64,000 bases of DNA from Aphanothece saxicola GSE-SYN-MK-01-06B (GTDB lineage Bacteria; Cyanobacteriota; Cyanobacteriia; PCC-6307; Cyanobiaceae), in assembly GCA_019359745.1 (NCBI GenBank), contig JAHHGT010000006.1, positions 62,001-126,000 of the forward strand, read 5' to 3'. Below, piece after piece: positions 48,961-53,674 of this stretch; the first letter of the stretch is position 1; the number at the start of each line of letters is the position of its first letter. The position numbers and the translations under genes were made by a program. Below the pieces are notes generated by a model that saw only the letters and a list, made by a program, of their open reading frames with translations, was not told the DNA's origin and did no database searches.

Positions 48961-50535
48961 TCAGCGCTGCGGACGTCCCAGAAGGAACACCACCGCCATG
49001 GCCAGATAGCCCAGGGCCCAGGGGGTGCCGCTGCCCCAGCCGGGGTCGAGAACCGTGTCGGCCAGAGTGAAACTCCAGGCATGGATCAGCCCCAGCCAGG
49101 AGGCGGCCGCCGCCACCAGGGCGCCGAGGGCGGCGGCGCGGAAGCGCTGCTCGATCACATAGACGAGCATCGCCGCCAGCAGCATGGCCGGCAGGATCTG
49201 GCCCTGCTCGAGGGCGAAGGCACCGGCGGCCCACACATCCGCCTGCTGCAGCGGCGGCAGCAGCTGGGGGCCGAAGGGATTGGCCGGGGTGCCGCTGCCT
49301 CCGGCCCGCAGCCCCGCCTTCAGCATCAGGGAGCCCCAGCCGGCCAGGCCGGGCAGGAGGCCCAGGGCGACGGCGGGGGCATGGGCCGGCGGTGTGGCCT
49401 GGAACGCCTGGGCCGCCATCACCAGGGCGATGTAGAGCACGATCGCCATGCCGGCCTCGATCGGCACCAGCTGGCCCACCACCCCGAACAGCCCCAGCAG
49501 GCAGCCCAGGCCCATCACCAGCCCGTTGAGCCAGGAGTAGCCGATGCGGGCGCCCATGCCCTTCCAGCCGGGATGGCCGATATAGATGGTGGTGGGGAAG
49601 CAGGACCCCAGCAGGGCGGCGGCCACCGTGCCGATGCCGTTGATCAGCAGCGAACTCTTCACCGGGTAGGCATCGCCGGCCGCCTCGGCGCTCTCCAGGT
49701 TCTGCAGCGACCCCAGCAGGTTGAACAGGCCCATCGGCACCGTCACCCCCAGCCAGGGCAGCAGGGCGTCGCGGCCGGCCCAGAGGGCGCCCAGCTGGGG
49801 CACGGGCAGGTGCAGCCCGACCTGTGCAAGGTTGGTCTGCCAGGTGGGGCCATCCAGCCGCAGCAGGCCCGTGGCCGCCGCCAGGACGATGCCCACCAGC
49901 ACCGCCAGCACGCCGCCCGGCAAGGGAAGCCGGGCCTGGCCGAAGTAGGCCAGCAGGATCACCGCCAGCACCGCCAGCCCCACCATCGGGACGGCGTAGG
50001 TGCGCAGCAGGAAACCCAGACCGATGTAGCCGAGGGCGATGCCCGCCAGGGTGGAAAGCAGGGCGGCCCGGGGCAGCCAGTGCCGCAGGGGGGCCACCAG
50101 GAAGGCGCCCCCCGCCTCGATCAGCCCCGACCCCAGGCAGGCCAGCAGGCCGGCGCGCCAGGAGAGCAGGGAGGCGGCCTGGGGATCCAGGCCCTGGCCG
50201 GTGGCCGCCAGCTTCACCGGCAGCATCACCAGGAACACATAGGCGAACAGGCTGACCGTGTTGATGCCGTAGGGCAGGGCGGTGCGGTCGTCCCGGCCCT
50301 CGCGCCGCCCCAGGCGGTGGGCCTGAACGGCGTAGGCCACGTTCCCCACCACCAGGCTGATGCCCGTGGCCGGCAGGATCGTGCCGAAGATCAGGCCATC
50401 GGGATACCCCAGCACGCCGCGGCAGAGGGCCACGATCAGCAGGATCTGGATCAGGTTGTCGAGGCCGAGCCCCAGGAAGCCATCAAGGTCGCCGCGCACC
50501 CACCAGCGGGGGGAGGCTGCGTTGAGCTCAGCCAT
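48961..50535 (-). CDS. NCS2-type permease
   Basis: 524 residues from the ATG at 50535, with about thirteen membrane helices. [22 protein letters not shown] is the N-terminal signature of a cyanobacterial group of the nucleobase/xanthine (NCS2, AzgA-related) family, and [26 protein letters not shown] together with [19 protein letters not shown] are the substrate-site helices. Substrate unknown; xanthine/guanine or a sulfate/organic anion are possible by family. Its first 8 bases overlap the def stop. Confidence 0.8.
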
Positions 50536-51022
50536 GGGACAGCCCCGCCGGCATCCGATCCGGAAACAGCACCCCATCGAGGTGGTCGCACTCGTGCTGC
50601 ACCACCCGGGCGTGGAAGCCCTCCACCTCCCGCTCGAACGCCTGCCCCTGGCCGTCGAAGCCCCGGTAGCGCAGGCGGCGCCAGCGGGGCACCCGGGCCC
50701 GCCAGCCGGGCACGCTCAGGCAGCCCTCCCAGGCGCCGTCGTCTTTTTCGTCGCCGAGGGGCGTGAGCACGGGATTGATCAGCACCGTCTCCGGGATGGG
50801 GGGCGCCTCCGGATAGCGCGGGTTGTGGGTGATGCCGAAGATCACCACCCGCAGGGGCACGCCGATCTGGGGGGCCGCCAGGCCGGCCCCATCGGTGGCG
50901 GCCATGGTGTCGCGCAGGTCGTCGAGCAGCGCCGGCAGGGCGGGGTCATCGAACCGCTGCACCGGCGCACTCACCTGGCGCAGGCGGGGATCTCCGATGG
51001 TCAGCACGTCACGGACGGCCAT
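50528..51022 (-). CDS. def: Peptide deformylase
   Basis: Removes the formyl group from new proteins; metal enzyme. 164 residues from the ATG at 51022; a longer frame to 51109 is Ala/Gly-rich and overlaps the divergent promoter region. All three motifs are intact: [19 protein letters not shown] (metal Cys) and QHECDHLDG (metal His pair and catalytic Glu). [18 protein letters not shown] is a normal N-terminus. Divergent from the formyltransferase gene, with 85 bases between. Confidence 0.95.
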
Positions 51023-51107
51023 GGGCGGCTCTGGATCGGCCCCACTGTGCCGCCTTCCGGCCGCCCCGTCCGTACCATCCGCAGATGATGCTGCGCCCGG
51101 CGACGCC

Positions 51108-51980
51108 ATGGCCGTGAGCTCCCTGCGGGTGGCCGTGCTCTGCTGCGACGGCCTCTACCAGCGCCACCTGGTGCGGCGGGCGGCCGAGGCGTTCACCCTG
51201 GTGGGGGTGGTGCTGCAGGTGTCACCGCCCGAGAGCCGCAGCAAGCTGGCCCGGCTGGCGAAGTACCGCCGGCCGTTGCGGCTGCTGCGCCAGCTGGTCG
51301 CGCGCGTGCTGCTGCGGCCCCACGACCGCCGCGGCGCGGCCCTGCAGCGGCAACTCTTCCACCACAACGGCGCTCCGCCGGCGCTGCCGGAGGGGGTGCC
51401 CGTGCTGATCACCTCGGCCATCAACGAGGCGCGCACCGCCGACTTCCTGCGCCAGGTCGCCCCCGACATCGTCCTGGTGAACGGCACCCAGCTGCTGCGG
51501 GCGCCGGTGCTGGCGCTGATCCCCGCCATCCGCCACGGCCTCATCAACCTGCACACCGGCCTGTCGCCCTATTCGCGCGGTGCCAACTGCAACCTCTACA
51601 TGCTCATGGAGGGGCATCCGGAGCTGGTGGGGGTCACGGTGCACCACATCGACCCCGGCATCGACAGCGGCGACATCATCCTGTCGGCCCACGTACCGAT
51701 GGAAGCGGACGACGACGTCGAGACCATCGAGGTGCGCAGCTTCCAGGTGGGCATCGAGCTGCTGATCGAGGCGGCCCGCCGGCTCGAGGCCGGCACCGCG
51801 CCCCGCGTGCCCCAGTGGGAGAAGGGCAAGCTGTTCCTGCGGCGCACGGGCTACGTCTACGAGCCCTGGCAACGGCTGCTGGCCAACCGCCGCATCGCCC
51901 GGGGCCTGGTGCGCGCCTACCTGGCCGACCAGCCGCGGCGCGACGGGGCCGTCCGGGTGGTGCGGGGGGAGCAGCCGTGA
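51108..51980 (+). CDS. Formyltransferase family protein
   Basis: 290 residues from the ATG at 51108. The N10-formyl-THF-type transferase fold is seen in [29 protein letters not shown] and [19 protein letters not shown], which supply the catalytic Asn-His-Asp set. It is not Fmt (no C-terminal tRNA domain) or PurN (different N-terminus), and resembles sugar-N-formyltransferases or related modification enzymes. GTGA overlap with a polysaccharide deacetylase gene supports a sugar-modifying role. Substrate unknown. Confidence 0.82.
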
Positions 51981-52984
51981 GTCGCCTGGGGCGTGTCGCC
52001 AACAGGGCAGCGGACCTGCTGTTCCTGCCGCCGCTGGATCGCCTCTGGCGCCGGCGCCTGCGGGGGAAGGTGCTGTGTCTGCTGTACCACCGGGTGGACC
52101 AGCCGGGCCGGGTGCCCTTCCTCGACCGCTTCGGGGTGCCGCCGATCCCCCCCGGGGAGCTGGCCGCAGAACTGGGGTTCCTGCAGCGCCGCGGCGCCCG
52201 CTTCCTCACCTACGCCGATCTGCGGGCGGGCCGCTTCCCCTCCGCTGAGGAGTTCGGGGTGATCGTCAGCTTCGATGACGGCCTGCGCTGCAACTACGAG
52301 GAGGGGCTGGAGGTGCTTGCGGCGCTGGGCGTCCCCGCCGTGTTCTTCCAGTCGTCCGGGATGCTCGCCGGCGGGGTGCTGGTCTGGGAGCACGCCCTCT
52401 ATTGGTACGGCACCCACCCCACCCTGGCGCCCCGGCTGGCGGAACTGGCCCGGCAACGGCTGAAGCTGCCTGCCGAACTGGAGGGGGCGGCCCTGATCGC
52501 CCGGCTGCGGGATGGCACCCCCGTGGCGCGGGTGCAGGATCTGCTGGCGGAGCTGGCGGAGCGCTGGGGCACGGCCGGCGAGCTGGCGGCGGCGGCCGAG
52601 CACCTTTATCCCAGCGAGGCCCACCTGATCCGGGCCCGGGACGCCGGCCACGAGCTGGGCAGCCACGGCCACCACCACGTGCCCCGCTGCAACATCAGCC
52701 CGGCGACGTTCGAGCAGGAACTGGTCCGATCAAGCGCCGTGCTCAGCCGGGTGCTGGGGGAGCCACCCCAGTCGTTCTCCTATCCCTTCAACAGCCATCT
52801 GCCCGGCGACGACCAGATCTGCGGCCGCCATTTCCGCCAGGTGGCCACGGTCGATGGGGCCCTGCTCACCGCCTCGACGCCGGCCCTGGCCCTGCCCCGC
52901 TTCACCTGGCCGGGGCCCCATCCCAACCGGCTGCGCCGCCGCCGCTGGCTCTGGACCGGAACACTGGCCTGGCCAGGGAGATAG
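51977..52984 (+). CDS. Polysaccharide deacetylase (NodB homology)
   Basis: 335 residues from a GTG overlapping the preceding stop (GTGA). GKVLCLLYHRVDQPG starts the domain, FGVIVSFDDGLRCNYEEGL has the metal-binding and catalytic Asp pair, and HELGSHGHHHVPRCNIS provides the metal His residues. FSYPFNSH is the later family motif. A helical insert (about 140-215) separates these motifs. No signal peptide is visible, so it may act in the cytoplasm on a nucleotide- or lipid-linked sugar, perhaps making the free amine that the adjacent formyltransferase uses. Confidence 0.85.
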   Translation: MSRLGRVANRAADLLFLPPLDRLWRRRLRGKVLCLLYHRVDQPGRVPFLDRFGVPPIPPGELAAELGFLQRRGARFLTYADLRAGRFPSAEEFGVIVSFDDGLRCNYEEGLEVLAALGVPAVFFQSSGMLAGGVLVWEHALYWYGTHPTLAPRLAELARQRLKLPAELEGAALIARLRDGTPVARVQDLLAELAERWGTAGELAAAAEHLYPSEAHLIRARDAGHELGSHGHHHVPRCNISPATFEQELVRSSAVLSRVLGEPPQSFSYPFNSHLPGDDQICGRHFRQVATVDGALLTASTPALALPRFTWPGPHPNRLRRRRWLWTGTLAWPGR

Positions 52985-53008: not shown

Positions 53009-53674
53009 ATGGCCTGGCCCCTGGCCGTGTTCGACGGGTCCATCAGCCTCACCACCCTGGAATCCCTCCTCCACGACTGGGGGTACTGGGTGGTGTTCGG
53101 CGCCATGCTGCTGGAGAACGCCGGCGTGCCCCTGCCCGGCGAAACGGTGACCCTTCTGGCGGGCTACGCGGCCGGCAGCGGCCAGCTGCAGGTGCTTGGC
53201 GTGATGGGGGCCGCGGCCGGCGGAGCGATCCTGGGGGACAACATCGGCTACTGGGTAGGGCGCCGGGCCGGCTGGGGCCTGCTGCTGCGGGCCGGACGGC
53301 TGCTGGGCCGCGGCCCCGAGCAGATGGAGGCCCTGCGGGAGCGCTTTCTGCGCCACGCCGGCAAGTCGGTGCTGCTGGGGCGCTTCGTTGCGGTGCTGCG
53401 GGTGCTGGCCGGCCCGATCGCCGGGGCGGTGCGGATGCCCTACCGCCGCTTCCTGCTGTTCAACATGCTGGGGGCCGTGCTCTGGGCCTCGACGATGGTG
53501 GGCCTGGCCTGGCTCGGCGGGCGCTGGATCCCCTTCGATCAGATGGTGAAAGGTGTCGTTGAATTTGGGCTCGGCGCCCTGGTGCTGCTGGTGATCGTGC
53601 TGGTGGTGCCGAAGCTGGTGGCCCGCTTCGAGGAGGCCCAGCTGGAACGGGAGGCCAAGGATCCGCCCGCCTGA
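53009..53674 (+). CDS. DedA family membrane protein
   Basis: 221 residues, four to six membrane helices. AMLLENAGVPLPGETVTLLAGYAA contains the conserved Glu and PGE of DedA proteins, and GRFVAVLRVLAGPIAGAVRMPYRRFLLFNMLGAVLWA the conserved Arg-rich half. Family members flip lipids such as undecaprenyl phosphate or phosphatidylethanolamine across the inner membrane. Follows the deacetylase by 24 bases and may share its transcript. Confidence 0.9.
   Translation: MAWPLAVFDGSISLTTLESLLHDWGYWVVFGAMLLENAGVPLPGETVTLLAGYAAGSGQLQVLGVMGAAAGGAILGDNIGYWVGRRAGWGLLLRAGRLLGRGPEQMEALRERFLRHAGKSVLLGRFVAVLRVLAGPIAGAVRMPYRRFLLFNMLGAVLWASTMVGLAWLGGRWIPFDQMVKGVVEFGLGALVLLVIVLVVPKLVARFEEAQLEREAKDPPA

Follow-up and report, generated by a model that had tools for sequence, protein, structure and literature searches.

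The 64,000-nucleotide stretch of DNA analysed here, referred to as the window, derives from the freshwater cyanobacterium Aphanothece saxicola GSE-SYN-MK-01-06B and carries two overlapping genes encoding a formyltransferase (FT) and a polysaccharide deacetylase-like protein (DAC). The genes, their catalytic motifs and the two flanking genes are located as follows (window positions):

51108 to 51980, plus strand: formyltransferase (FT), PF00551, ATG start, TGA stop, 290 amino acids
51546 to 51554, plus strand: catalytic Asn147 and His149 of FT, within one motif, both invariant (n = 54 sequences)
51663 to 51665, plus strand: catalytic Asp186 of FT, invariant (n = 54 sequences)
51977 to 51980, plus strand: GTGA junction, start codon of DAC over the stop codon of FT, 4-nt overlap
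51977 to 52984, plus strand: CE4 (NodB-fold) polysaccharide deacetylase-like protein (DAC), PF01522, GTG start, TAG stop, 335 amino acids
52274 to 52279, plus strand: motif 1 of DAC, Asp100 and Asp101 (SFDDG); Asp100 invariant, Asp101 conserved in at least 90% (n = 44 sequences)
52664 to 52678, plus strand: motif 2 of DAC, His230 and His234 (HGHHH), both invariant (n = 44 sequences)
53009 to 53674, plus strand: DedA (VTT domain, PF09335), downstream neighbour, judged to lie outside the unit
50528 to 51040, minus strand: peptide deformylase (def, PF01327), divergent upstream neighbour, which marks the insertion site and lies outside the unit

The equivalent junction in Caenimonas (L057) reads ATGA instead of GTGA. 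In a codon comparison of the window with five relatives whose FT is 76-96% identical, dN/dS values of 0.15-0.31 were obtained for FT and of 0.27-0.46 for DAC; against the more distant cyanobacterial MAG L060, the values were 0.58 and 0.48, respectively. Judged by these ratios, both genes are under purifying selection. FT and DAC had been described as a coupled pair in the first-pass annotation, and this description is borne out by the 4-nt overlap, the intact catalytic residues and the purifying selection: the pair is real and conserved and is probably functional, and its two genes are probably translationally coupled. Among the relatives, L050 (8870-9873) and L056 (8001-9875) have a disrupted deacetylase frame, and L056 a disrupted formyltransferase frame as well; the neighbouring genes are present at both loci, and the breaks reflect either decay or sequencing error.

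DedA begins 24 nt downstream of DAC and had initially been proposed as part of the system, in the role of a candidate lipid transporter. This proposal does not hold, since DedA is retained in same-genus genomes that lack the pair and adjoins the pair in none of the 70 loci outside the close relatives. In the same-genus genomes G163 and G187 (L140 and L142), def is immediately next to DedA, with no pair in between, and in G062 (L141), a third genome of the genus without the pair, DedA is present and the stretch yielded no def. The pair of L060 is located between a permease-like gene and an APC transporter, with neither def nor DedA beside it. A tblastn search with the window DedA against 71 loci returned only the same-lineage locus L058 and a 36% paralogue around 6 kb off in L060, a single query at 1e-3 by which diverged DedA proteins could be missed. 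As the def-DedA site is occupied in some genomes and empty in others, the pair is a variable insert at this site, with DedA as a bystander. The window further encodes a 538-amino acid protein (48961-50577, minus strand), which is hydrophobic by eye and matches nothing in Pfam or NCBIfam up to E 0.01; it is kept in the close relatives, in L060 and in two pair-less genomes of the same genus.

Classification of the formyltransferase and the deacetylase

FT belongs to the Formyl_trans_N superfamily: it matches PF00551 above the cut-off (E 2.4e-14, 53.9 bits against 26.1) and possesses the Asn-His-Asp triad (N147, H149, D186), of which Asn147 and His149 are equivalent to Asn102 and His104 of ArnA, and Asp186 corresponds to ArnA Asp140. 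In a Foldseek search with the AlphaFold model of FT (mean pLDDT 96.1), Fmt ranked first, with the hydrolase domain of 10-formyl-tetrahydrofolate dehydrogenase (FDH), WbkC and ArnA at similar levels, and a search of solved structures with the single FT sequence placed FDH enzymes at the top. The FT family profile, compared to solved structures, returned ArnA first, other sugar N-formyltransferases near the top and one Fmt in seventh place. Since the single sequence leads to FDH and Foldseek to Fmt, the assignment as a sugar enzyme rests on the profile; profile and fold similarity together point to a putative sugar N-formyltransferase.

Several established families were considered for FT and rejected. 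As an Fmt, it reached 46.3 bits on TIGR00460 (cut-off 201.5; Bacillus Fmt as control, 406.6 bits) and it contains PF00551 only, without the C-terminal Fmt domain. As a PurN, it reached 45.4 bits on TIGR00639 (cut-off 150.1), on which the PurN of the window genome itself (L001), found on a separate tree branch, scored 220.4 bits. As an ArnA, it reached 46.4 bits on NF005998 (cut-off 777; Salmonella ArnA, 1236.8 bits) and it consists of one domain without a fused dehydrogenase. The curated cut-off for dTDP-Qui4N formyltransferases was likewise not reached.

A tree of 56 rows was built from FT sequences of 36 of the 80 wide-survey loci described below, one window sequence, four cyanobacterial FTs and 15 comparators, among which ArnA is the only known sugar formyltransferase. 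In this tree, the FT family makes up a clade of 41 rows (support 99/96), which is separate from Fmt, PurN, PurU and ArnA and carries the motif HxGLSPYxRG. With the curated cut-offs missed and the clade well supported, FT does not fall with Fmt or PurN; neither this grouping nor a lack of conserved pairing, the two outcomes named beforehand as refuting the first reading, was observed. The window FT groups with its cyanobacterial relatives, followed by Caenimonas (91/61), and a seven-row group (100/100) comprises the window FT group, Caenimonas and three further proteobacterial sequences; this nesting with proteobacterial sequences suggests horizontal transfer. In a phage collection, all matches among the 15 listed of 20 matched records were partial (42-61% of the query), including that of P-SSM7, which is annotated as a PurN-type enzyme, and no FT relative was found in a scan of viral contigs. 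WbkC, VioF, the QdtF type and PseJ act on amines made by aminotransferases. FT resembles these enzymes in its fold and its Asn-His-Asp triad, with 17-27% identity in the fold matches; however, it falls into a clade of its own in a tree in which ArnA alone represents the known sugar enzymes, it carries the clade motif, and it has a dedicated deacetylase partner.

DAC is a CE4/NodB-fold deacetylase according to its match to PF01522 (E 6.4e-16, 58.9 bits, cut-off 23.1) and its metal motif of Asp-Asp and H-x3-H, the second part of which we take to be of the H-[S/T]-x-x-H type with Gly replacing Ser/Thr. The AlphaFold model of DAC (mean pLDDT 93.3) contains a helical insert at residues 137-210, approximately. 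Its nearest folds in Foldseek are IcaB (E 4.8e-12), PgaB and PplD, all deacetylases of GlcNAc-containing glycans, whereas ArnD appeared only at rank 47 (E 4.5e-3); in a comparison of the DAC profile with ArnD, hhalign gave a probability of 1.8%. An assignment of DAC as an ArnD deformylase was rejected, with NF011923 not among the family matches obtained up to E 0.01 (ArnD control, 521.2 bits), and so was an assignment as a PgaB/IcaB polysaccharide deacetylase, for which DAC scored 15.6 bits on TIGR03938 against a cut-off of 321.9, even though the fold is alike.

IcaB, PgaB and PplD act outside the cytoplasm, on polymers. DAC shares with them the CE4 fold and the metal site of Asp-Asp and His-His; however, it has the added helical insert and no signal peptide is apparent in a hydropathy scan, in which the top 19-residue value within the first 60 residues was 0.36. 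Many, though not all, DAC relatives start just 6-15 residues ahead of the first strand, Y/FHRV. The lack of an apparent signal peptide, which had already been remarked upon, is thus matched by the mostly short N-termini of the relatives, and a cytosolic location is the natural reading: DAC is probably cytosolic.

Distribution and genomic context of the pair

A search for conserved pairing, which had been named as a check, was run and revealed the same pair again in widely divergent bacteria and in archaea. The wide survey covered the best 80 of 239 FT relatives found among 84,980 species, picked by FT similarity alone, and therefore leans towards FTs like that of the window; deacetylases were identified with a profile of DAC that was built up over four rounds. 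In 65 of these best 80 loci, DAC directly adjoins FT and shares its strand, with FT first in 32 and DAC first in 33. In the remaining 15 loci, DAC is one gene away in two, FT lies less than 1 kb from a contig end in four, and DAC is absent in nine, all of which have FT more than 1 kb from the contig end. After leaving out 10 close cyanobacterial relatives, adjacency was found in 55 of 70 loci. An exact 4-nt overlap, with the start expected for the downstream gene over the stop of the first, is present in 29 of the 63 loci with both starts placed, among which the close cyanobacterial relatives count as non-overlapping owing to the late start codons assigned to them. The four-letter pattern NTGA, which occurs in 51 of the 65 adjacent pairs, easily arises at TGA stops and was hence not used as an overlap count. 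Sequence distances among the FTs are correlated with those among the DACs (r 0.935, 55 pairs), much of which would result from shared ancestry alone. Seven of the nine loci without DAC are planctomycete (L065, L076, L080, L081, L083, L088 and L115); ten neighbouring ORFs scanned from some such loci contained no deacetylase family, and DUF4910, a putative peptidase family that is discussed below, was not found in them either.

In a sample of 201 genomes of the window's family, the close pair is present in 8 of 11 same-genus genomes and adjacent in all eight, with a broken deacetylase frame in one copy. Profile searches of the same sample gave an FT-family match in 14 genomes, with DAC adjacent in 12 of these (the exceptions being G001 and G120), and any match to the DAC profile in 23. 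A sample of 369 genomes from the class of Caenimonas yielded 23 FT matches in 21 genomes. An adjacent same-strand CE4 gene accompanies four of these (L199, which is Caenimonas itself, L203, L213 and L214), and in L207 a CE4 gene lies beside FT on the opposite strand in divergent orientation. Eleven of the 23 FTs carry a GGLSP motif, namely two with a DUF4910 neighbour and nine without an adjacent deacetylase. Eight of the latter nine and L207 were read further: a Wzy-like ligase lies beside FT in six of these nine regions and an alpha-toroid protein in eight, and a match to the DAC profile is found around 6 to 9 kb off in two. That GGLSP-type FTs are mostly unpaired counts against strict pairing in the wider FT family. 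Taken together, FT-DAC pairing is widely conserved, yet not universal, and a GGLSP-type sister subfamily is without it. The GGLSP-type formyltransferases of L222-L229 are located in exopolysaccharide-like loci, mostly beside the Wzy-like ligase and the alpha-toroid protein, and the region contains an asparagine-synthase-like gene in six of these eight loci.

The partnership also occurs in other forms. L218 (1222-2838) contains a single 539-amino acid frame in which a formyltransferase domain is followed by a CE4 domain at the C-terminus, both above the Pfam cut-off; this fusion was found once among the 23 FT matches of the Caenimonas-class sample. In three loci of distant genomes, a DUF4910 putative peptidase lies beside FT:

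L211, 116 to 1501: DUF4910 protein beside FT, Caenimonas-class sample
L215, 2267 to 3655, minus strand: DUF4910 protein beside FT, Caenimonas-class sample, assigned by sequence match to L211 only
L161, 6403 to 7755: DUF4910 protein beside FT, cyanobacterial relative

It is possible that these DUF4910 proteins are amino-sugar deacylases. Moreover, in all four plasmid records matched at 1e-15 by the FT of Antarctobacter (itself included), a PIG-L gene overlaps FT by 4 nt. Three of the PIG-L partners match PF02585, and the fourth matches the BshB1/BshB2 bacillithiol deacetylase models below their cut-off. A haloarchaeal plasmid FT has a CE4 partner with a 4-nt overlap, which is diverged and was missed by the DAC profile. 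Both the PIG-L-linked and the haloarchaeal FTs fall outside the 41-row clade, at weakly supported positions, and thus represent parallel cases; FT may have been joined to a de-N-acylase-type partner more than once. The PIG-L pairs were all found in plasmid records: a PIG-L motif search of the 80 loci gave no match, and a PIG-L query matched one opposite-strand ORF around 4 kb from FT in L091.

Neighbour families were tallied from 107 and 96 selected flanking ORFs, with the close cyanobacterial loci left out where stated. Of the 80 loci, 5 have NeuB in the vicinity of the pair, and three more have an epimerase-type gene only. The archaeon L103 shows the order DAC-FT-NeuA-NeuB-NeuC, in which NeuC passes its curated cut-off and NeuB remains below its own. 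In G017, a small-genome relative of the window's family, the pair is surrounded by NeuB, NeuC, a PseF-like gene, which is below the cut-off, and a DegT aminotransferase. The Caenimonas-class loci include NeuB beside FT in L221 and an epimerase-type gene in L216. A family 2 glycosyltransferase is encoded directly upstream in the three proteobacterial loci L057, L061 and L063. An asparagine-synthase-like amidotransferase is seen near FT on the same strand in L071, L074, L079, L084, L085, L094, L095, L109, L113, L114, L122, L124 and L125; in nine loci, mainly of Bacteroidota, such a gene is directly upstream of DAC. An amidotransferase would suit an N-formylated uronamide. The surroundings of relatives thus comprise asparagine-synthase-like genes as well as glycosyltransferases and methyltransferases. 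In eight Nitrospirota loci (L066, L068, L075, L090, L093, L106, L116 and L118), moeA is located directly upstream of the pair, a linkage unexplained by a role in sugar modification.

The genes next to the window pair include no recognisable glycosyltransferase or sugar gene. Nonulosonic acid was rejected as the organism's own substrate, since the window genome has no match to NeuB (PF03102), and the substrate is therefore probably a hexosamine or a derivative. Among the same-genus genomes, NeuB is found in two of the eight with the pair and in one of the three without it.

A predicted acetyl-to-formyl exchange

Formyltransferases that depend on N10-formyl-tetrahydrofolate can act only on a free amine present in the cytosol, and nitrogen derived from UDP-GlcNAc is already acetylated. 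As this nitrogen is blocked, a formyl group on it, be it at C2 of a hexosamine or at C5 of a nonulosonic acid, cannot be obtained by an aminotransferase and a formyltransferase, which would explain a deacetylase encoded beside the formyltransferase. A cytosolic deacetylase tied to FT, together with a slot that can be filled by other amide hydrolases next to related FTs, fits an exchange of acyl groups. We consider it likely, with a probability of roughly 70%, that FT and DAC constitute a cytosolic acetyl-to-formyl exchange module, which acts on a GlcNAc-derived amine and provides a formyl sugar for a surface glycan. The metal-dependent CE4 enzyme would N-deacetylate an amino sugar in which the acetylated nitrogen stems from UDP-GlcNAc, and FT would then formylate the freed amine with N10-formyl-tetrahydrofolate as donor. 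The sugar acted upon may be nucleotide-activated or attached to a polyprenyl carrier on the cytosolic side of the membrane, and the N-formylated sugar, likely an N-formyl hexosamine or a derivative in the window organism, would be incorporated into the surface glycan. The pairing, the gene overlap, the one fusion, the intact catalytic residues and the other hydrolases in the slot beside related FTs are direct observations, from which we infer the substrate, the order of the steps and the product. Deacetylation followed by N-formylation, as first suggested, is the best-supported chemistry because other de-N-acylase families fill the slot beside related FTs. A broader proposal, on which we would place even odds, is that the wide FT group joined to CE4, PIG-L and DUF4910 de-N-acylases, once by fusion, constitutes a widespread bacterial and archaeal cassette converting N-acetyl to N-formyl groups on hexosamines and nonulosonic acids.

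ArnA and ArnD provide the main alternative. ArnA formylates UDP-Ara4N, and the undecaprenyl-linked product is deformylated by ArnD, whose fold is of the NodB type and which is named a deformylase by NF011923. By analogy, the formyl group added by FT could protect an amino sugar or drive its transfer, and the NodB-fold enzyme would subsequently remove it to leave a free amine. Like the window pair, the ArnA formyltransferase domain and ArnD combine a PF00551 formyltransferase with a NodB-fold hydrolase, and the adjacent arnA and arnD genes of a Salmonella plasmid, which are annotated for the opposite chemistry, overlap by 4 nt too. This alternative is retained because the arnA-arnD layout serves formylation followed by deformylation; however, we judge it unlikely. 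FT lacks the dehydrogenase domain and stays far below the ArnA cut-off (46.4 bits against 777), DAC is IcaB/PgaB-like and far from ArnD in profile, fold and family comparisons, and the neighbours of the window pair include no recognisable ArnB, ArnC or ArnT gene. Furthermore, the slot beside related FTs can be occupied by PIG-L proteins, a family that, to our knowledge, does not deformylate. In the preferred acetyl-to-formyl exchange, the order of the two reactions is predicted to be reversed compared to the Arn enzymes.

The two enzymes could also act in parallel, with DAC modifying one residue of a glycan or lipid-linked precursor and FT another. Both look glycan-modifying, and the glycosyltransferases, methyltransferases and asparagine-synthase-like genes around the relatives would suit such a division of labour. 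However, neither in the window nor in the gamma MAG L059 were glycan genes recognised next to the pair, its order flips between phyla while adjacency is kept, and the two domains are fused in L218, all of which makes independent action rather improbable. Least probable is a substrate other than a glycan sugar, for example a cofactor or a lipid head group. The moeA gene upstream of the pair in 8 of 80 loci and the window pair without recognised glycan genes beside it would agree with such a substrate, but many of the other contexts are glycan or nonulosonic-acid loci, the nearest folds of DAC are glycan deacetylases, and the nearest solved relatives of the FT profile are sugar formyltransferases.

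In the N-formyl sugars whose biosynthesis is known to us, the formyl group is placed on an amine freshly added by an aminotransferase. The nitrogen at C5 of nonulosonic acids comes from C2 of GlcNAc. In the haloarchaeon Halorubrum sp. PV6, which makes 5-N-formyl-legionaminic acid, a formyltransferase gene has been proposed within the leg cluster (PMC6137143). The pathway resembles the system described here in that a nonulosonic-acid cluster contains a candidate formyltransferase and the N-formyl group is on C5; it differs in that the window genome has no NeuB and in that the main text of PMC6137143 mentions no deacetylase, gene 1052 of the cluster being left unnamed in that main text. 2-formamido-galacturonic acid occurs in some Pseudomonas O antigens, according to a title cited in PMC7555982, and a review on Pseudomonas LPS (PMC7168646) contained none of the terms looked for on this lead. 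Among the matches listed in the literature searched, which mostly excludes subscription journals, no description of a deacetylase-formyltransferase pair was found, and those accessible texts that contain both 'formyltransferase' and 'polysaccharide deacetylase' concern arn genes or unrelated genes. Within the same body of accessible literature, no described route was found for formyl on a GlcNAc-derived nitrogen.

The novelty of the pair lies within known N-formyl sugar biosynthesis and no new kind of chemistry is involved. For a formyl group on GlcNAc-derived nitrogen, the conserved deacetylase-formyltransferase pair offers a directly testable answer, and it would allow N-formylated glycans to be predicted from genomes across many phyla. 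It also offers a function for the DUF4910 proteins in glycan loci, which, if the broader cassette is real, are predicted to be amino-sugar N-deacetylases; the origin of N-formyl groups at C2 or C5, as in 5-N-formyl-legionaminic acid, would then be explained as well. For the cyanobacterium itself, it is tempting to speculate that a lineage-restricted acyl change at the cell surface could matter for recognition by phages or grazers.
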